DNA from: Lacticaseibacillus paracasei subsp. paracasei
Lineage (GTDB): Bacteria; Bacillota; Bacilli; Lactobacillales; Lactobacillaceae
Reading direction: 5' to 3'
Assembly (NCBI RefSeq): GCF_000829035.1
Contig: NZ_AP012541.1
Location: 248,001 to 312,000, forward strand
Length of the DNA: 64,000 nt
Shown: one piece after another, positions 9,114 to 21,036 of the stretch
How the letters are laid out: every line of letters starts with the position of its first letter
How positions within the stretch are numbered: the stretch's first letter is position 1
Program-made: the position numbers and the translations under genes
Notes under the pieces: model-generated
Told to the model about the DNA's origin: nothing
The model's database searches: none
The model's input: only the letters and a program-made list of their open reading frames with translations

Positions 9114-13821
<4,708 letters not shown>

Positions 13822-13828
13822 TAAGAGT

Positions 13829-13943
13829 GTGAGCAGGAGCGGTTAGAAACCGGAGCATAAGCGGGCCTGAGCGTGATGGCCGGGCTTTGGCCATTGCGGT
13901 CAGGGTCCTTATGTGCAGGTTTCTGCGACTGCGAACACGTTTC
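13829..13943 (+). repeat. Dispersed hairpin repeat, copy 2, inside the rRNA operon
   Basis: It lies between 23S and 5S. Core stem CCTGAGCGTGATGGCC / GGCCATTGCGGTCAGG, with outer arms GTTAGAAACCGGAGCATAA and TTATGTGCAGGTTTCTGCGA. Same framework as copies 1, 3 and 4. It must be transcribed with the rRNA precursor. Confidence 0.85.
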
Positions 13944-14018
13944 GATGACAAGTACGTTAAGTTCAAGGCAGCAATTAAACAATGATAGCCAGTTTTGAGA
14001 GCGCAAAGTTCTCATAAG

Positions 14019-14135
14019 TGTGGTGGCGATAGCAAGAAGGATACACCTGTTCCCATGCCGAACACAGAAGTTAAGCTTCTTCACGCCGAGAGTAGTTGGT
14101 GGGAAACTGCCTGCGAGGGTAGGAAGCTGCCACGC
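14019..14135 (+). rRNA. 5S ribosomal RNA
   Basis: 117 bases starting TGTGGTGGCGATAGCAAGAA and ending GAAGCTGCCACGC. The terminal helix forms between the ends and the conserved CCGAACACAGAAGTTAAGC is present. No tRNA follows. Confidence 0.93.
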
Positions 14136-14143
14136 TAAGTTAG

Positions 14144-14172
14144 GATCTGGTCATTGACCGGATCTTTTTTTA
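14144..14172 (+). terminator. rRNA operon terminator
   Basis: GATCTGGTC-ATT-GACCGGATC hairpin followed by seven T. Confidence 0.9.
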
Positions 14173-14236
14173 TACCTTGATAAGTAAGTGGCAGTCGTGC
14201 TAAATTGCAAGAGCAAGCATGGAAGGGGATCACATC

Positions 14237-14551
14237 ATGGCAATTGAGGCAACGAAAGATAACTTGAAGGCATTGACAGCTGAAGGCACGGTTGTCGTTG
14301 ATTTTTGGGCACCGTGGTGCGGCCCTTGTAAAGTGCTTGATCCGATGTTAACGGCCCTAGAGCAAGAACTGCCAGCGCTTAAAGTGGTTCGTTATAATGT
14401 TGAAAAAGATCATACGTTGCCGAGCACTATGGGCATTATGTCAGTACCCACCTTAGTCATTTATCAGCAAGGAGAGGCGCGCGAAAAAGTGACAGGTGTT
14501 TACCCTAAAGACAAACTTAAACGGTATTTTGAACAGAAACTTGAGGCGTAG
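14237..14551 (+). CDS. trxA: Thioredoxin
   Basis: 104 residues from ATG 14237, selected because AAGGGG at 14223-14228 is 8 bases upstream and the length is then that of standard TrxA. An in-frame ATG at 14219 lacks a site. The active site is WAPWCGPCK. The cis-proline loop is MSVPTLVIY and the C-terminal helix is PKDKLKRYFEQKL. It is a cytosolic disulfide reductant, reduced by thioredoxin reductase. It sits just after the rrn terminator and 2 bases before the exporter genes, so it probably shares their transcript. Confidence 0.93.
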   Translation: MAIEATKDNLKALTAEGTVVVDFWAPWCGPCKVLDPMLTALEQELPALKVVRYNVEKDHTLPSTMGIMSVPTLVIYQQGEAREKVTGVYPKDKLKRYFEQKLEA

Positions 14552-14553
14552 GT

Positions 14554-15330
14554 ATGACACATTCAGTTGAGCGTCAGGATACAGCAATCCAAAATCAAGT
14601 ATTGGCAACATGCTTGCTTGCTGGACGCATTATGATTGAAGGCGGTTCGGAAATGTATCGTGTTGAAGATACGATGCGACGAATTGCTGTGAATGCCGGT
14701 GAGCCACAAACGTTGGTGTTTACGACGCCAACCGGTATATTTGCTAGCATCGAAAATCAGCCGTATATTCAGGAGCGGCCGATTAGCAAACGATCGATTG
14801 ATATGGAAAAAGTGACGCGCGTGAATCAACTCTCTCGTTCGTTTGCGGCTGATCAGATTGATCTAGATGAATTGCACGCGGCATTGATCAAACTGGATCA
14901 GAACACCCCTTTTTTCCCGATTTGGTTGCAGGTGGTGAGCGCGGCAGTTGTCAGCATGACACTCATGGTGTTATTTGCTCAACAGTATGACTGGCTTGAT
15001 ATGCCTTTGGCAGCTGCGGTCGGTGCATTGGGCTTTCTAGTTGATATCAAAGTGAATGCAGTGACCAACATTCGGTTTATTAGTGAATTACTGGGCGCAT
15101 TGGTCGTTGGCTTAACTGCGTGGCTTGGGGTCCGGTTAGGCCTAGGACACAACCTGGACTTTATTATTATTGGAGCGATTATGCCGCTTGTACCGGGGGT
15201 AGCGATTACCAATTCGATTCGCGATATGCTGGCAGGACATTTGCTGTCCGGTATGGCCCGCGGGATGGAAGCCATTTTGAGCGCTTGTGCCATCGGTGTT
15301 GGTATTGCTATGATCTTCCGGTTCTTCTAA
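14554..15330 (+). CDS. ThrE-type exporter, large subunit (DUF1212 / YjjP-like)
   Basis: 258 residues. The N-terminal soluble domain (1-115) carries the family motif CLLAGRIMIEGGSEMYRVEDTM and a tract around TPTGIFASI. The C-terminal half has four to five hydrophobic helices, including FIIIGAIMPLVPGVAITNSIRD. Family members export threonine and serine (ThrE) or, as the YjjP/YjjB pair, succinate. The companion small subunit follows at 15352; single-chain ThrE is a fusion of both parts. Translation start is coupled to trxA, 2 bases upstream. Confidence 0.88.
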   Translation: MTHSVERQDTAIQNQVLATCLLAGRIMIEGGSEMYRVEDTMRRIAVNAGEPQTLVFTTPTGIFASIENQPYIQERPISKRSIDMEKVTRVNQLSRSFAADQIDLDELHAALIKLDQNTPFFPIWLQVVSAAVVSMTLMVLFAQQYDWLDMPLAAAVGALGFLVDIKVNAVTNIRFISELLGALVVGLTAWLGVRLGLGHNLDFIIIGAIMPLVPGVAITNSIRDMLAGHLLSGMARGMEAILSACAIGVGIAMIFRFF

Positions 15331-15351
15331 AAACATAAAGGGGGCGGCATC

Positions 15352-15810
15352 TTGCAGTGGTGGTTTGCTTTACTAGTTCAACTTTTGTTCAGTTATTTGG
15401 CAACGGTCGCTTTTGCTATCATTATCAACGTGCCGCGCAAGGCGTTAAATTTGGCTGGTTGGGCCGGGATGATGGGCTGGTTGGCCTACTGGTTGTTGAT
15501 GGAAGTCGGTAGTGGCCGGATGATGGCCAATTTAGTCGGAGCTTTTGTCATTGGCTTGTGTGGTATCTTTTTTGCGCGCTATAAGAAAATGCCGGTCATC
15601 ATTTTCAACATCCCGGGATTTGTACCTTTGGTGCCAGGCGCTGTTGCTTACCAAGCAGTACGAGCAACTGTCTTAGGCGATCTGGACGGGGCCTTGCAGT
15701 ATGTCAGTCGGGTGGTCATGATCGCTGGTGCCATTGCTGTCGGCTTTATGTTGGCCCAGCTGTTATCAGAAGTGTTGTATAAACGAGCTGTTTTAAAACC
15801 GAAAAAGTGA
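15352..15810 (+). CDS. ThrE-type exporter, small subunit (DUF3815 / YjjB-like)
   Basis: 152 residues; TTG start with AAGGGGG 7 bases upstream. It has four to five predicted membrane helices and the conserved FNIPGFVPLVPGAVAYQAVR, mirroring the MPLVPGVAITN segment of the large subunit, consistent with a shared ancestry of the two halves. It is expected to form one transporter with the product of the preceding gene. The substrate is not evident from sequence. Confidence 0.87.
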   Translation: MQWWFALLVQLLFSYLATVAFAIIINVPRKALNLAGWAGMMGWLAYWLLMEVGSGRMMANLVGAFVIGLCGIFFARYKKMPVIIFNIPGFVPLVPGAVAYQAVRATVLGDLDGALQYVSRVVMIAGAIAVGFMLAQLLSEVLYKRAVLKPKK

Positions 15811-16006
15811 TATAATCATGTTATGCGATGAGTCGAGTAAGCACGCAACTTGTGCTGAAAGCTGCAGCTGACTGGTTAAAAGCCATCCGCCGGATTTGTG
15901 GGGTCAGCGATCTCAAGGTTGTGGAGCCAGCGAGATCCTATCCAAGTCAACTTGGGTACTGCAGAAAAAGGACGTTTTTGCCTTTAAGGGTAAGGACGTC
16001 CTTTTT
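15811..16006 (+). ncRNA. Candidate structured RNA ending in an intrinsic terminator
   Basis: TATAAT at 15811-15816 could start a transcript near 15823. Helices seen: AGCAC/GTGCT hairpin (15839-15855). An enclosing CTGCAG (15862-15867) pairs with CTGCAG (15959-15964). Inside it are GCTGAC/GTCAGC (15867-15872/15903-15908, with two small hairpins), GATCTC/GAGATC (15909-15914/15932-15937) and CCAAGT/ACTTGG (15942-15955). A terminator follows (AAGGACGT/ACGTCCTT, 15966-16006, then TTTTTT). This is a multibranched fold of roughly 190 nt with no ORF. I could not match it to 6S, SRP, tmRNA, RNase P, T-box or a riboswitch I know. It could also be the 3' UTR of the exporter gene. Confidence 0.45.
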
Positions 16007-16114: not shown

Positions 16115-16183
16115 GCCAGGCGTTAGATTGTCATCAAAATAAACATTCAGCAAATTACCAATAAAAATTTCTGAGAAAATAAG

Positions 16184-16212
16184 TTGACTTTCCTTGGTAA
16201 TCATATTAAGAT
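16184..16212 (+). promoter_or_regulatory. Promoter of the liv leader and operon
   Basis: TTGACT (16184-16189), 17-base spacer, TAAGAT (16207-16212). It lies 38 bases before the leader-peptide ATG. Confidence 0.75.
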
Positions 16213-16250
16213 TTTAACCAACCATTAATCTTAACTAGGAGGGCGTATTG

Positions 16251-16343
16251 ATGTCATTGATGTGTATGCAAAGAAAAACAAATCGTAACTGTCATTACGC
16301 TCTTTTAGCCTTGTTGTTGATGCCAGGGACCCGACCGAATTGA
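16251..16343 (+). CDS. Leu-rich leader peptide of the liv operon
   Basis: 30 codons with AGGAGGG 7-8 bases upstream of the ATG. The peptide is MSLMCMQRKTNRNCHYALLA followed by LLLMPGTRPN. Five of six codons at 16302-16319 are leucine (CTT TTA gcc TTG TTG TTG). It is followed directly by alternative hairpins and an intrinsic terminator. This arrangement is that of transcription-attenuation leaders of ilv/leu operons: ribosome stalling at Leu codons when charged tRNA-Leu is scarce would favour read-through. The downstream genes encode a branched-chain amino-acid importer, which fits. Experimental status unknown to me. Confidence 0.75.
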   Translation: MSLMCMQRKTNRNCHYALLALLLMPGTRPN

Positions 16344-16431
16344 TCGTTTAAGATCAACGTGTTGAGCCCCGTTTTCGCATTGGCGATGGGGCGTACGATT
16401 AGCACCCATTCGTCTGAATGGGTGCTTTTTT
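16341..16431 (+). promoter_or_regulatory. Attenuator region with terminator
   Basis: Three hairpins in order: TGATC/GATCA (16341-16356), GCCCC..CGC / GCG..GGGGC (16366-16392), and terminator AGCACCCATTC/GAATGGGTGCT (16401-16426) followed by T6. Alternative pairings exist: GTTGAT in the Leu codons (16316-16321) with ATCAAC (16353-16358), and CGATGGG (16385-16390) with the terminator 5' arm CCCATTCG. These would give mutually exclusive folds. Confidence 0.7.
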
Positions 16432-16485
16432 CTGTTAAGAATCAATGAGATATAGTCATAAGCAATATAATGAGGGGGAACCAAG

Positions 16486-17679
16486 ATGAAGAAGCAAATT
16501 GTCAAAGCAATTATGAGCGCTGGCGTCATCGCCGCTTCGATGCTGGCATTGGCAGGCTGTGCGACAAAGAGTGCCACGAGCAAAGGAAATACGGCAGGTA
16601 ACACGATTAAAATCGGCGTGAACATGGAGTTGTCTGGCGCGGTTGCTGGTTACGGCGAACAGCAGAAACAAGGCATTGAATTGGCCGTGAAACAGATTAA
16701 CGCTGCAGGTGGTATTAAGGTCGGAAATACTAAGAAAAAAATAACGGCCATCTATCGTGACAACAAATCGTCAACGAGCGGCGCGGCTTCAGTAGCTACA
16801 CAGCTGGCGAATACTGACAAAGTGGTTGCGATCGTTGGACCGGCGACAACCAATGACGGAACAGCCTCTATTCCAAACGTGACCAAGGCGGCCGTACCAA
16901 TGGTGAGTCCCAGTGCTACGGATCCAAACTTTACACTTCAGAAAAATGGCAGCGTGCAGCCTTACGTTTTCCGTGCTTGCTTCAATAACGATTTTCAAGG
17001 AGACCATGCGGCGATATTTGCCAACGATACCTTGAAGGCCAAAAACGTGGCGATTATTGCTGACAACTCGACTGATTACGGAACCGGGTTGGCTAAGGCA
17101 TTCAAGAAGAAGTTTAAAGGTAATATCGTGACGACTCAGTATTATCAATCAGGTGATAAAGATTTCAATGCTATGCTGACAGCGATCAAAAGCAAGAAAA
17201 TTGATGCCATCTATGCACCGGGCTATTATTCAGAATTAGGCCTCGTCATCAAGCAAGCGCGGCAGTCAGGCATCAAGGTACCGTTTATTGGTGCAGATGG
17301 CATGGCCGATCCTAAGTTGGCACAAATCGCCGGCGCTGCGAATGCAACTGATATTTATTACACCACGCCATTTTCGACGCTGAGTGCTAACAGCAGCAAG
17401 CTGGTGAAGAACTTTATGACCAGCTTTAAGAAGCAGTATCAAACAGAAGCACCAACGTTCTCAGCACTTGCCTACGATTCGGTTTACATGATCAAGCAAG
17501 CGATTGAAGATCAGAAGGCTGCTGATTCAGCCAGCATTGCCAAGGGCTTGGCCAAGATCAAAAAAATGCCTGCTGTGACAGGCACCACGACCATTGATAG
17601 TCACCATAATCCTGAGAAGCCGCTGGCGGTTGAGCAACTGACACAAGGCAAAATTGCCAAAGTCTATACCGTTAAGTAA
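16486..17679 (+). CDS. livJ: Branched-chain amino-acid ABC transporter, substrate-binding lipoprotein
   Basis: 397 residues. It has a lipoprotein signal peptide with lipobox LALAGC (Cys about 25), followed by a type I periplasmic-binding fold of the Leu/Ile/Val-binding (LivJ) family: IKIGVNMELSGAVAGYGEQQ, AIVGPATTNDGTA, MVSPSATDPNFT, VFRACFNNDFQG. It would be anchored outside the membrane and deliver Leu/Ile/Val to LivHM. First structural gene of livJHMGF. GAGGGGG precedes the ATG. Expression probably passes through the upstream Leu attenuator. Confidence 0.95.
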   Translation: MKKQIVKAIMSAGVIAASMLALAGCATKSATSKGNTAGNTIKIGVNMELSGAVAGYGEQQKQGIELAVKQINAAGGIKVGNTKKKITAIYRDNKSSTSGAASVATQLANTDKVVAIVGPATTNDGTASIPNVTKAAVPMVSPSATDPNFTLQKNGSVQPYVFRACFNNDFQGDHAAIFANDTLKAKNVAIIADNSTDYGTGLAKAFKKKFKGNIVTTQYYQSGDKDFNAMLTAIKSKKIDAIYAPGYYSELGLVIKQARQSGIKVPFIGADGMADPKLAQIAGAANATDIYYTTPFSTLSANSSKLVKNFMTSFKKQYQTEAPTFSALAYDSVYMIKQAIEDQKAADSASIAKGLAKIKKMPAVTGTTTIDSHHNPEKPLAVEQLTQGKIAKVYTVK

Positions 17680-17714: not shown

Positions 17715-18593
17715 TTGCAAACCTTGATGCAACAAATCATTAATGGACTCTCACTTGGCAGTATTTACGCTTTACTCGCGCTAGGTTATACCATGGTTTA
17801 TGGGATCATCAAGCTGATTAACTTTGCCCATGGTGATATCTATATGCTCGGCGCGTTTTGGGGCTATTATGCGATTAATTACCTGCACTTCAGTTTTGTT
17901 CCAGCATTGTTGTCGGCGATGGTGATGGCTGCGCTCTCAGGCGTCTTGATTGAATACTTGGCGTATCGTCCGTTGCGAAATTCACCGCGAATTGCGGCGT
18001 TAATCACTGCCATTGGCGTTTCCTTTTTCCTAGAAAATGGCATGTCGTTTCTATTCGGTGCTAATGCCCGGAACTTTCCACAGGTCATCACCACTAAAAC
18101 CTACCAGATACTAGGGGTCGATGTTTCAAATGTGCAACTGCTTATTTTGTTCACATCCTTGGTACTGATGGTAATGCTGCAGTTCATTATCAAGCAAACA
18201 ACGATGGGCAAGGCGATGCGGGCGGTGGCAGTTGATCCAGAAGCCGCTCAACTGGTGGGGATCAATCCCGATCACGTCATTTCCTTCACCTTCGCATTAG
18301 GATCAGCACTGGCTGGTGCAGCGGGTGTCATGATCGGCTTGTATTACAATTCGATTGATCCATTAATGGGAATGGTGCCGGGAATCAAAGCGTTTGTCGC
18401 CGCGGTTGTTGGTGGGATCGGATCGGTCCCAGGAGCGGCTGTAGGGGGCTTCTTGATTGGCTTGCTAGAAACTGGTGTTCAGGCTGTGGGCTTATCGGCC
18501 TACAAAGATGCGGCGGTTTACCTTGTTTTGATCATCATGCTGGTCGTGTTACCTGCTGGATTATTCGGCAAACGTCAACGGGAGAAGGTGTGA
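17715..18593 (+). CDS. livH: Branched-chain amino-acid ABC transporter permease LivH
   Basis: 292 residues; TTG start with GAGGAGA 7 bases upstream. About eight hydrophobic helices. The family start is IINGLSLGSIYALLALGYTMVYGIIKLINFAHGD. The coupling region contains ATTMGKAMRAVAVDPEAAQLVGI-like sequence (TTMGKAMRAVAVDPEAAQL here). Forms the membrane channel with LivM. It lies 35 bases after livJ and 4 bases before livM. Confidence 0.95.
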   Translation: MQTLMQQIINGLSLGSIYALLALGYTMVYGIIKLINFAHGDIYMLGAFWGYYAINYLHFSFVPALLSAMVMAALSGVLIEYLAYRPLRNSPRIAALITAIGVSFFLENGMSFLFGANARNFPQVITTKTYQILGVDVSNVQLLILFTSLVLMVMLQFIIKQTTMGKAMRAVAVDPEAAQLVGINPDHVISFTFALGSALAGAAGVMIGLYYNSIDPLMGMVPGIKAFVAAVVGGIGSVPGAAVGGFLIGLLETGVQAVGLSAYKDAAVYLVLIIMLVVLPAGLFGKRQREKV

Positions 18594-18597
18594 GCCT

Positions 18598-19548
18598 ATG
18601 TTTAAAAATATGCGCAGTAAGCTCATTTGGCTCGCGACGATGATTGCTGGCTTTGTCTTGATCGACATTGGTGAATTAACCGGCGTCATTAACGGGTTTA
18701 TCGAAAATGCGCTGGTCACAATCGGCATTAACATTATTTTGGCAGTCGGTTTGAATCTTATTATCGGATTTTCCGGTCAGTTTTCGCTTGGTCATGCTGG
18801 CTTCATGGCGATTGGCGCTTATGCCACGGCGATCATCACACAAAACATCTCAACGCCGCTTGGGTTTTACCTTGCTATGCTGGTCGGCATGATCGTTGCG
18901 ATCATTGCCGCTTTGATTGTCGGAATCCCCACGTTGCGGCTGCGAGGTGACTATTTAGCGATTGCCACGATGGGCGCCGCCGAGATTATCCGAGTCATTA
19001 TTAATAATTTGAAAATCACCAATGGCCCTGCTGGTATGTTTAATATTCCGCCTTTGGCTTCGTGGCCAACGGTCTATATCTTAATGTGTGTCACTACTGT
19101 GATCGTTGTGAACTTCATTCACAGTCGGGCGGGCCGCGCGGTGATGGCCATTCGTGATGATGACATTGCCGCTGAGTCGATTGGCATCAATCCGACCAAA
19201 TGGAAACTGGCAGCTTTCGTGCTCGGCGCTGCCACGGCAGCCATTGGCGGTTCACTCCATGCGAGTTACTTGCAAACGATTGCTCCCGGAGATTTTGGCA
19301 TCATGAATTCGATTGCTTTGCTGATTATCGTCGTTTTAGGCGGGGTCGGTAGTATCACTGGCACTTTTGTCGCGGCGGTTGTGTTGGGCATCATCGATAC
19401 AGTGCTGCAGAACTTTGGCACTTTGCGAATGGTTATCTATGCGCTGGCACTCATTTTGCTAATGGTTTTCAAACCAGCTGGCTTATTAGGCCATTATGAG
19501 TTGTCGTTCAAGCGCAAGCGCCAGATTCGGAAAGGAGCAGCATCATGA
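18598..19548 (+). CDS. livM: Branched-chain amino-acid ABC transporter permease LivM
   Basis: 316 residues, with eight or more membrane helices and a basic C-terminus (FKRKRQIRKGA). Family hallmarks: NLIIGFSGQFSLGHAGFMAIGAYA and, in the cytoplasmic coupling loop, SRAGRAVMAIRDDDIAAESIGI. It partners LivH. The stop overlaps the livG start (ATGA), which indicates translational coupling. Confidence 0.95.
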   Translation: MFKNMRSKLIWLATMIAGFVLIDIGELTGVINGFIENALVTIGINIILAVGLNLIIGFSGQFSLGHAGFMAIGAYATAIITQNISTPLGFYLAMLVGMIVAIIAALIVGIPTLRLRGDYLAIATMGAAEIIRVIINNLKITNGPAGMFNIPPLASWPTVYILMCVTTVIVVNFIHSRAGRAVMAIRDDDIAAESIGINPTKWKLAAFVLGAATAAIGGSLHASYLQTIAPGDFGIMNSIALLIIVVLGGVGSITGTFVAAVVLGIIDTVLQNFGTLRMVIYALALILLMVFKPAGLLGHYELSFKRKRQIRKGAAS

Positions 19549-20330
19549 CGCAACAATTGGTAATTGATCACGTCAGTAAAGTTTTTGGCGGTTTAAAAGC
19601 CGTCGCGGATGTCACAATGACGATCGAACAAGGGACACTGATTGCCTTGATCGGGCCAAATGGCGCTGGGAAAACAACATTGTTCAATATGTTGACTGGC
19701 GAATCTGGGCCGTCGTCTGGCACGATTACCTTGTATACGGCTGATGGACCAGTTGATATTACGAAAAAGAAAGCCTATCAGGTGGCGAAGCTCGGTGTTG
19801 CTCGAACTTTTCAAAATATTCGCTTGTTTGGCGCCATGACGGTCAAAGAAAATGTTTTAGTGGCCAGGACACATCTTTATCGTGAAAGTTTCATTGGCAC
19901 GATGCTGCGGTTGCCGCAGTTTTATCAACAGGAGGCAGCCGTAGCAACTGCAGCCGACGAATTGTTAGATTTTTTTGAGCTTGCTGATGTGGCCGATGAA
20001 CCGACTGCTAGTTTGCCATATGGTACGCAACGGCGGGTGGAGATAGTGCGGGCAGTGGCCACGAAGCCGCAACTGCTGTTTCTGGATGAACCAGCTGCCG
20101 GGATGAATCCAGAAGAAACGGCAGATCTGGGGCGTTTGATTACTCGGATTCGTGAGCATTTTGGCATCACGGTGGTTTTGATTGAACATGACATGTCGCT
20201 GGTGATGAAATTGGCTGAGTCAATTTATGTACTCGACCATGGCGCCATGATTGCTTCTGGAACCCCTAATGAGATTCAAACTAACGCGCAGGTCATTAGT
20301 GCTTATCTGGGAGGTGAAAACCATGCTTGA
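19545..20330 (+). CDS. livG: Branched-chain amino-acid ABC transporter ATPase LivG
   Basis: 261 residues. Walker A GPNGAGKTT, Q-loop in ARTFQNIRLF, a degenerate signature LPYGTQRRVEI in place of LSGGQ (normal for LivG), Walker B LLFLDEPAAGMN and switch His in LIEHDMS. The LivG-specific long helix-loop insertion after the Q-loop is present (TVKENVLVARTHLYRESF). Overlaps livM by 4 bases and livF by 8 bases. Confidence 0.95.
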   Translation: MTQQLVIDHVSKVFGGLKAVADVTMTIEQGTLIALIGPNGAGKTTLFNMLTGESGPSSGTITLYTADGPVDITKKKAYQVAKLGVARTFQNIRLFGAMTVKENVLVARTHLYRESFIGTMLRLPQFYQQEAAVATAADELLDFFELADVADEPTASLPYGTQRRVEIVRAVATKPQLLFLDEPAAGMNPEETADLGRLITRIREHFGITVVLIEHDMSLVMKLAESIYVLDHGAMIASGTPNEIQTNAQVISAYLGGENHA

Positions 20331-21036
20331 GGTTAAACATCTCGTTGTGAACTATGGTGGCATTCAAGCTGTCAAAGACGTCAGCTTTAGCGTTCAAACA
20401 GGTGAGATTGTCGCCTTGATTGGCGCAAATGGTGCTGGTAAAAGTACGATTCTCAAAACAATCTCCGGTTTGTTGCGACCACGTTCCGGTATCATTGACT
20501 ATGAAGGGCAGAAAATCAATGGCATGGCGGCAGCCAAAATTGTGAAGCAAGGCATCTCGCAAGTGCCGGAAGGTCGACATATTTTTGCTGGTTTGACGGT
20601 AGCCGAAAACCTGCAAATGGGTGCGTTTGGACTGAAGGATAAGCAAGCTGCTGGCGAACAAATAACGATGGTCTATGATCGTTTTCCGGTGTTGAAGGAG
20701 CGGCAACATCAAGATGCCGCAACACTTTCCGGTGGTGAACAGCAGATGTTAGCCATGGGGCGAGCTTTGATGGCAAAGCCCAAATTGCTGTTACTCGATG
20801 AGCCTTCGATGGGCTTGGCGCCGATTTTCATTCAAGAGATTTTTGACATTATCACGAAAATCAACGCGCAGGGAACAACAGTGTTGCTGATTGAGCAAAA
20901 TGCACGCCAAGCGTTGGCCATCGCCGATCGCGGTTACGTTTTGGACAGCGGCACGGTCAAGCTGACCGGGACAGGCGAAGAGCTGCTTGCCGATCCGGCT
21001 GTGCAGGCAACTTATCTGGGGATGCAAGTGCCTTAG
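20323..21036 (+). CDS. livF: Branched-chain amino-acid ABC transporter ATPase LivF
   Basis: 237 residues from ATG 20323. GGGAGGTG at 20309-20316 decides this start, since an upstream in-frame start at 20251 lies inside livG and has no site. Walker A GANGAGKST, signature LSGGEQQML, Walker B LLLLDEPSMGLAP, switch His replaced by Gln in LIEQNARQ as is usual in LivF. Last gene of the operon, followed by a terminator at 21072-21108. Confidence 0.95.
   Translation: MLEVKHLVVNYGGIQAVKDVSFSVQTGEIVALIGANGAGKSTILKTISGLLRPRSGIIDYEGQKINGMAAAKIVKQGISQVPEGRHIFAGLTVAENLQMGAFGLKDKQAAGEQITMVYDRFPVLKERQHQDAATLSGGEQQMLAMGRALMAKPKLLLLDEPSMGLAPIFIQEIFDIITKINAQGTTVLLIEQNARQALAIADRGYVLDSGTVKLTGTGEELLADPAVQATYLGMQVP

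Follow-up and report, generated by a model that had tools for sequence, protein, structure and literature searches.

A predicted leucine-codon attenuator ahead of the livJHMGF importer operon of Lacticaseibacillus paracasei, with related leaders before leuA and leuB

The window, that is the whole stretch of 64,000 nucleotides from Lacticaseibacillus paracasei subsp. paracasei analysed here, contains a livJHMGF-like operon for a branched-chain amino acid (BCAA) importer (Table 1). Its substrate is assigned by homology only, because the NCBIfam matches lie under the curated cut-offs. Ahead of livJ a promoter, an AGGAGG motif, an open reading frame (ORF) of 30 codons, a set of competing helices and an intrinsic terminator follow one another in 5' to 3' order. 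An original prediction made from the letters alone had named the promoter, the 30-codon ORF with its ribosome site, five Leu codons, hairpins and a terminator, and all of them are in place. The region further upstream (9114-15810, forward strand) holds an rRNA operon (16S, 23S, 5S) and, after it, a thioredoxin-like gene and two genes for a ThrE-like exporter. Between the split exporter genes and the liv promoter lies a match to the Rfam family RF02840, Ref68 (Lacto-3 RNA), at 15824-15929 on the forward strand (46.9 bits, cut-off 44).

Table 1. Features of the liv locus in window coordinates.
Feature	Position	Strand	Evidence
Promoter, sigma-70-type, TTGACT-17 nt-TAAGAT	16184..16212	+	consensus scan; 5 aligned clade genomes
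AGGAGG ribosome-binding site of the leader ORF	16237..16242	+	read from sequence
Leader peptide ORF MSLMCMQRKTNRNCHYALLALLLMPGTRPN, 30 codons + TGA (16341-16343)	16251..16343	+	same layout in relatives
Putative regulatory Leu codons CTT TTA GCC TTG TTG TTG	16302..16319	+	core triple Leu in 64/64
Segment 1, GCC + Leu codons; predicted partner C (untranslated state)	16308..16320	+	pairing counts, prior-free scan
Segment A GGGACCCGAC; partner B	16326..16335	+	A:B pairing counts
Segment B GUUGAGCCCC; partner A or C	16361..16370	+	pairing counts; 12-column B:C run (leuA/leuB set)
Segment C UUGGCGAUGGGGC; partner 1, B or D	16380..16392	+	pairing counts, prior-free scan
Segment D AGCACCCAUUC, terminator 5' arm; partner C (antiterminator) or E (terminator)	16401..16411	+	C:D core conserved; terminator scan
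Segment E GAAUGGGUGCU (16416-16426) + T run, terminator 3' arm	16416..16431	+	terminator scan
livJ, branched-chain amino-acid binding protein	16486..17679	+	Pfam PF13458 E 2.2e-55; best PDB 4gnr E 3.3e-77
livH-like permease	17715..18593	+	NCBIfam NF008011 E 6.2e-69, under curated cut-off
livM-like permease	18598..19548	+	NCBIfam NF008450 E 1.9e-57, under curated cut-off
livG-like ATPase	19545..20330	+	NCBIfam NF008449 E 1.2e-82, under curated cut-off
livF-like ATPase	20323..21036	+	NCBIfam NF008626 E 3e-84, under curated cut-off

The promoter matches the consensus at 9 of 12 positions. As the scan of 801 bp on both strands returned three promoter-like sites with 1.6 expected, this match taken alone is weak. 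The -35 hexamer is identical in the five aligned genomes of the window's clade and the -10 hexamer varies (TAAGAT, TAATAT, TAGTAT). The AGGAGG motif precedes the ATG at 16251 by 8 nt. Five Leu codons of the ORF are clustered, and a sixth (TTG) is found at codon 3. The terminator has a stem of 11 bp (16401-16426) followed by T's to 16431, with a D:E duplex energy of -20.3 kcal/mol; the scan found one such terminator, and 0.9 were expected by chance. The leader RNA of 225 nt folds at -77.9 kcal/mol compared to a shuffled mean of -55 (z = -5.0), and none of 200 shuffles was as low. In the fold predicted for the window RNA without a ribosome, helix 1:C encloses A:B, the terminator is formed, and the ribosome site is paired to the stretch immediately 5' of the Leu triple.

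To see where the element occurs we inspected the region upstream of livJ in relatives, as the original prediction had proposed. In the genus Lacticaseibacillus livJ is present in 24 of 30 genomes, and the element stands upstream of it in all 24. Among named loci with a livJ relative it was found in 24 of 77, belonging to Lacticaseibacillus, Lentilactobacillus, Lactiplantibacillus, Loigolactobacillus, Levilactobacillus, Secundilactobacillus, Ligilactobacillus, Paucilactobacillus and one uncultured Lactobacillus. The 24 genus genomes and 22 of the 24 named loci form alignment A1 (46 liv leaders); two Lacticaseibacillus loci (L039, L040) were omitted as they apparently stem from the same genomes as L013 and L014. 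Leu codons, alternative helices and terminator are kept in these 46 aligned leaders. From a subset of 31 leaders, hand-picked against near-duplicates and including the window (alignment A2), we built a leader model, R1. In the 3.0-Mb genome of the window its single match at E <= 1 is the leader described here (150 of 621 candidates scored). In the family search 21 of 26 genomes of the genus match R1, and the five negative ones (G011, G080, G156, G263, G303) are also without livJ.

The element is missing from the other 53 named loci, whose livJ homologues are more distant: none gives an R1 match at E <= 1. They belong to Enterococcus, Leuconostoc, Agrilactobacillus, more distant Loigolactobacillus and others. 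The element is therefore a feature of one operon lineage and not of livJ generally. At one locus (L034, genome G232) the livJ match spans residues 1-239 only, in an open frame of 254 aa, and the leader is kept. Four genomes (L035-L038) carry two livJ-like genes in tandem, the second with 57-60% identity to the livJ of the window; no leader with four or more Leu in eight residues was seen before these second copies, which were left out.

The Leu codons were compared in the 46 liv leaders together with 18 aligned leaders of leuA/leuB genes described below. The core codon triple is Leu in 64 of 64 leaders, i.e. in 192 of 192 codons, written as TTG, TTA, CTC, CTA and CTG. Core codons with a third-position pyrimidine are of the C..Y type 11 times and never of the T..Y type, which would encode Phe (Fisher p 8.8e-11, kinship ignored). 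The conservation of ORF and Leu codons, to which the original prediction had tied its fate, is thus borne out. An in-frame start with a ribosome site is present in 45 of the 46 liv leaders. The exception, L032, keeps the RNA segments, and none of its starts equipped with a ribosome site is in frame with the Leu triple; counted among the 64, it is possibly a decayed leader or a sequencing error. All 46 liv leaders keep the first Leu codon of the triple and the GG of arm A at a distance of 14-17 nt (sd 0.7). The distance between A and B varies from 31 to 56 nt, and measured from the same GG the stop codon sits at -4 to +22 nt.

Five helices, 1:C, A:B, B:C, C:D and D:E, are conserved and compete with each other, as judged by sequence comparison. 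The alternative hairpins of the original prediction are therefore part of a richer set than had been drawn, in which the Leu codons themselves are one arm. For A:B, 94.3% of 404 cells in A1 are paired and five of nine pairs have changed on both sides; the 25 double-change cells compare to 7.1 in shuffles and were reached in none of 500, and the count of doubly changed pairs was matched by 42 of 500. Helix 1:C is paired in 96.8% of 506 cells, with double changes at one of eleven pairs only (columns 15/106, A-U 21, G-C 19), and a shift by 3 still leaves it about 70% paired, owing to the UUR repeat. In C:D 82.4% of 414 cells are paired; the inner seven pairs form almost without exception, and the outer two are mostly open. 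Four of its nine pairs show double changes, a number reached by 409 of 500 shuffles, and its 19 double-change cells were reached by none of 500. The B:C core was counted with an anchored script, since A1 splits it over two registers: 254 of 276 cells are paired, which 6 of 1000 whole-segment shuffles reach; in the liv set a helix longer than 6 bp has no advantage over shuffles. None of these shuffle tests preserves relatedness.

A scan of column pairs free of prior assumptions was run in addition. In the 18 leuA/leuB leaders the longest runs that it recovered were 12 for D:E, 12 for B:C, 9 for 1:C, 8 for C:D and 7 for A:B, besides one run of 7 outside the model (columns 5-11 with 130-136). The maximum in 100 column shuffles was 8, with a mean of 0.08 runs of 7 or more. 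These leaders were found by R1, which models 1:C and A:B, so that these two helices are partly preselected; B:C is not among the R1 pairs, and D and E lie outside R1. In the 46 liv leaders the scan gave 12 for 1:C, 10 for D:E and 7 for C:D (shuffles at most 6). A:B and B:C are absent from it as long runs, as mismatches and a shifted register split them into runs of four. A plain four-segment switch of the trp type was considered and is incomplete, because A:B and B:C are both conserved.

We propose, with a probability of roughly 0.88, that the element is a ribosome-mediated transcription attenuator which senses charged tRNA-Leu and controls the livJHMGF importer. The proposal is based on what comparison shows: the ORF with its Leu codons, all five helices, the constant spacing from Leu to A, and the operon. 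From this we infer the ribosome footprint, the stalling, the direction of the leucine response, the choice of structure and termination itself. If Leu-tRNA is low, the ribosome would stall on the Leu codons and mask segment 1, leaving segment A just beyond its edge; A would pair with B, C would be free for D, and the polymerase would read into livJ. With sufficient Leu-tRNA a ribosome at the stop codon would mask A, B:C and D:E would form, and transcription would end near 16431. If there is no translation, the Leu codons would pair with C, with A:B nested inside, and the terminator would form. As untranslated Leu codons would hold C, the default of the switch would be off. The pairings are mutually exclusive as in classical attenuators. 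Leucine shortage would thus very probably switch the importer on by way of leader and hairpins.

We took a ribosome to cover 12 nt past the first base of the A-site codon and 18 nt upstream of it. On this assumption a ribosome on the first Leu codon would mask segment 1 and halt just short of A, and one at the stop codon would cover at least part of A. To follow the consequences in silico we compared the energies of C:D and B:C in both positions. The difference (C:D minus B:C) moves from a mean of -1.6 kcal/mol (stalled) to +2.8 kcal/mol (stop) in the liv leaders, rising in 43 of 46, and from -5.6 to +3.3 kcal/mol in the leuA/leuB leaders, rising in 18 of 18. The shift has the predicted direction in 61 of 64 leaders, and its sign does not always change: C:D is outright favoured in the stalled state in only 24 of 46 liv leaders, and it is favoured even at the stop in 13 of 46 liv and 2 of 18 leuA/leuB leaders. 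The pair probability of C:D is higher when stalled than at the stop in 41 of 46 liv and 17 of 18 leuA/leuB leaders, and higher than in the unoccupied RNA in 37 of 46 and 15 of 18, respectively. Against an off default, C:D reaches at least 0.5 without a ribosome in 14 of 46 liv and 5 of 18 leuA/leuB leaders. In the window RNA the difference is +0.9 kcal/mol when stalled and +6.3 kcal/mol at the stop, in the predicted direction, and C:D never exceeds an equilibrium probability of 0.07, whatever the ribosome state. As C:D is disfavoured at equilibrium, read-through in the window would need kinetic help.

The layout expected of an attenuator is found in three respects. All 64 leaders carry the Leu triple ahead of genes that handle leucine (liv, leuA or leuB), a short predicted ORF with a ribosome site lies ahead of the operon (in-frame start in 45 of 46), and an exclusive choice between terminator and antiterminator appears by comparison (C:D versus D:E), with C:D absent from the equilibrium fold of the window. 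With ORF, Leu codons, helices and terminator conserved before livJ, the ribosome-stalling attenuator that had originally been suggested gains support.

Mixed codon runs were observed in some relatives: LVAVLII in L180, LAILAVILI in L248 and L254, and VVVVLLLS in L251. They suggest that such leaders have an altered amino-acid specificity within the same RNA frame. The mixed Val/Ile/Leu runs also speak for the likeliest alternative, which accepts the attenuator anatomy and takes the signal to be a general slowing of translation or the mixed branched-chain supply instead of leucine alone; any slow-down over the leader, be it by several starvations or by ribosome drugs, would act alike. We regard this as unlikely, as all 64 aligned leaders have Leu at the three core positions and the genes under their control serve leucine synthesis or import.

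The N-terminal part of the leader peptide varies widely, and many relatives share ALLLKxKDPT near the C terminus. The KDPT of these relatives is the RNA arm AAGGACCCGAC read in one frame; the same arm is read as PGTR in the clade of the window and in a QRTR frame in others, and 6 of the 46 leaders stop before it. Segment A is thus conserved across frames, so that part of the constraint acts at the RNA level, as an RNA switch free of translation (a T-box, a leucine riboswitch or a protein-bound antiterminator) with an incidental ORF would have it. The turnover of synonymous Leu codons and the fixed Leu-to-A spacing point to translation, and we give this alternative little credence. No T-box reached the gathering threshold in the window or the 28 other loci searched, of which 13 bear the element, and none appeared at E <= 10 in 16180-16440. 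This Rfam search at gathering covered the window, 18 livJ loci (3 with the element) and 10 further loci bearing the element; the search at E <= 10 covered the leader of the window and one leuA leader, and its weak matches all lie under the gathering scores. A T-box or another known RNA was therefore rejected as the identity of the element, the only gathering-level matches among the leaders being rli60 in L265 and L271.

The shared ALLLKxKDPT might also be taken as a sign of nascent-peptide arrest, the type known from TnaC and SecM, in which the peptide sequence itself stalls the ribosome. We reject this reading as highly improbable, because the C-terminal peptide follows from an RNA arm that is read in different frames and that some leaders do not reach. 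Just as improbable is a constitutive terminator that insulates livJ from upstream transcription next to a chance ORF: the terminator is indeed strong, but the promoter is located ahead of it, no promoter-like site turned up in the scan between terminator and livJ, and the conservation of C:D, 1:C and the Leu codons would be left unexplained.

Returning to the proposed attenuator, we searched for it beyond the liv operon. R1 matches 101 of 397 genomes of the family Lactobacillaceae and 18 of 395 genomes of an order sample, 17 of these inside the family. One order-level match (G677, L184) was rejected as a leader, since the livJ homologue starts about 2.6 kb away. We fetched 60 loci from the matches of R1 and a second model, R2, picked to cover weak and second matches, so that the proportions are no census; four of these loci are leaders that A1 already contains. 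Downstream genes were typed with eight probe genes selected after the loci had been read. The first probe gene downstream is leuA in 31, livJ in 18 including the rejected L184, leuB in 3, an MFS transporter in 3 and an Fe-ADH-like gene in 2 loci, with SBP_bac_5, SBP_bac_3 and a PEP-mutase-like gene in one each. The leuA/leuB leaders are L162-L168, L170-L172, L174-L179, L199-L201, L234-L240, L242-L247, L249 and L252. L182 lies before the peptide-binding SBP_bac_5, L181 and L198 before the Fe-ADH-like gene, L233, L241 and L250 before MFS transporters and L251 before the PEP-mutase-like gene. The SBP_bac_5, Fe-ADH-like, MFS and PEP-mutase-like targets may represent new BCAA-related functions.

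The leuA/leuB leaders of Lactobacillaceae have the five segments and the Leu triple in common with the window element. In the 18 aligned ones, unlike in the window, the stop codon directly follows the third Leu; they further differ in a longer uninterrupted A:B hairpin and in standing before biosynthesis genes where the window element stands before an importer. The original prediction had regarded the use of such a leader for a transporter as less familiar. That the element precedes an importer holds true, but it is not specific for importers, as related elements stand before leuA and leuB.

R2 was trained on alignment A4, which comprises the 18 leuA/leuB leaders, with L179 (leuA) left out and the window excluded. 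It finds the leader of the window at E 3.1e-6 (45.3 bits), a match that is reciprocal and not independent because R1 supplied the training rows. At E <= 0.01 R2 is found in 121 of the 397 family genomes, and at E <= 0.001 in 126 of the 365 genomes of an order sample, the majority of which lie outside Lactobacillaceae. Of 17 out-of-family loci (L255-L271) 14 were read: 12 lie before an ilvD-like start and two before an Opp/Dpp-like permease, and these 14 carry short ORFs rich in BCAA codons. In a family search the downstream gene of L271 is a dihydroxy-acid dehydratase and that of L266 an Opp/Nik-type permease, the latter under the cut-off. The scan of a joint alignment of the 14 ilvD/opp loci returned B:C only, with 7 columns, which one of 100 shuffles also reached. 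Helix 1:C is short in L255 (5 bp) and L258 (7 bp), and the automatic choice of segment D was unusable for L261, L265, L267, L270 and L271, as were other segments for L261.

In the enteric trp, his and leu attenuators the regulatory codons lie in one arm, a ribosome at the stop codon favours the terminator, and a lack of translation leads to super-attenuation. They control biosynthetic operons, in contrast to the importer of the window, and are likened to it here by mechanism and not by sequence.

Among the closest known systems is also Rli60 of Listeria (RF02414, attenuator of the ilv-leu operon). Rfam, run on seven of the 14 loci, reports rli60 in two, L271 (181 bits) and L265 (61 bits, cut-off 60); R2 matches L271 at E 9.3e-8. 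Rli60 is described as a ribosome-mediated attenuator with a 13-aa leader and a BCAA-dependent reporter output, for which mutants of RBS, ATG and terminator were analysed (PMC5864092). The 13-aa leader of L271, MKTTKSVITILLL, fits this peptide length. In L271, A:B, B:C and 1:C were located by script and C:D was read from the sequence. As judged from L271, Rli60 shares with the window element a short BCAA-rich leader, an AGGACUU../..GAGUCCU hairpin, a terminator, and a segment whose complement occurs in the regulatory codons as well as in the terminator arm. It differs in its biosynthesis target ilvD and its Ile and Leu codons, and it has been drawn with four segments (PMC5864092), compared to five in the window element. 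The architecture is common to Rli60 and the leuA/leuB elements of lactobacilli, from which we infer a relation by descent. RF02414 has no match in the window at gathering and none in 16180-16440 at E <= 10. The window element would thus work like classical attenuators and resembles Rli60, yet by model it is no member of the Rfam family rli60.

Ribosome-mediated attenuation of BCAA biosynthesis in Gram-positives is known or predicted (PMC6123439, PMC5794164). For the ilv-leu attenuator of S. aureus, another Firmicute, with its leucine-rich peptide, a Leu-responsive attenuation was proposed and supported by reporters (PMC5794164). In these traits it is like the window element, and it differs in controlling a biosynthesis operon; we liken the two by description. 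A survey of premature terminators reports ABC-leaders, and its authors state that leader-peptide systems were to their knowledge unshown outside Proteobacteria and Actinobacteria; no word of its main text, as available, starts with leucine, liv or leuA (PMC2965389). A T-box survey covers the LIVCS transporters of lactobacilli, with livJ unmentioned in its available text (PMC2494555). Within the main texts of the library that we searched, we found no paper describing such an attenuator before liv or leu genes of lactobacilli.

Taken together, we lean a little beyond even odds towards a single attenuator family that shares descent with Rli60 and was copied across the order, in which a swap of the codon run changes the specificity and 1:C acts as a lock. 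If so, the targets of this family would comprise ilv/leu biosynthesis, Liv import, Opp-type peptide import and some unassigned transporters and enzymes. The regulatory codons would double as the 1:C lock, so that synonymous choice would be under a joint constraint of coding and pairing.

For the organism itself, the attenuator would tie the livJHMGF importer to charged tRNA-Leu. No 2-isopropylmalate synthase (leuA) was found above the curated cut-off in the genome of the window (best match 25.8 bits), and uptake is therefore probably its leucine supply; judged by its gene content, the source genome (G000) is possibly that of a leucine auxotroph. The family would put transport, peptide uptake and biosynthesis under one RNA device, for which the lactobacillus leaders searched gave no Rfam match. 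Genes controlled by BCAA can be sought with its model, and its members form a natural series for weighing codon identity, spacing and RNA pairing against each other.
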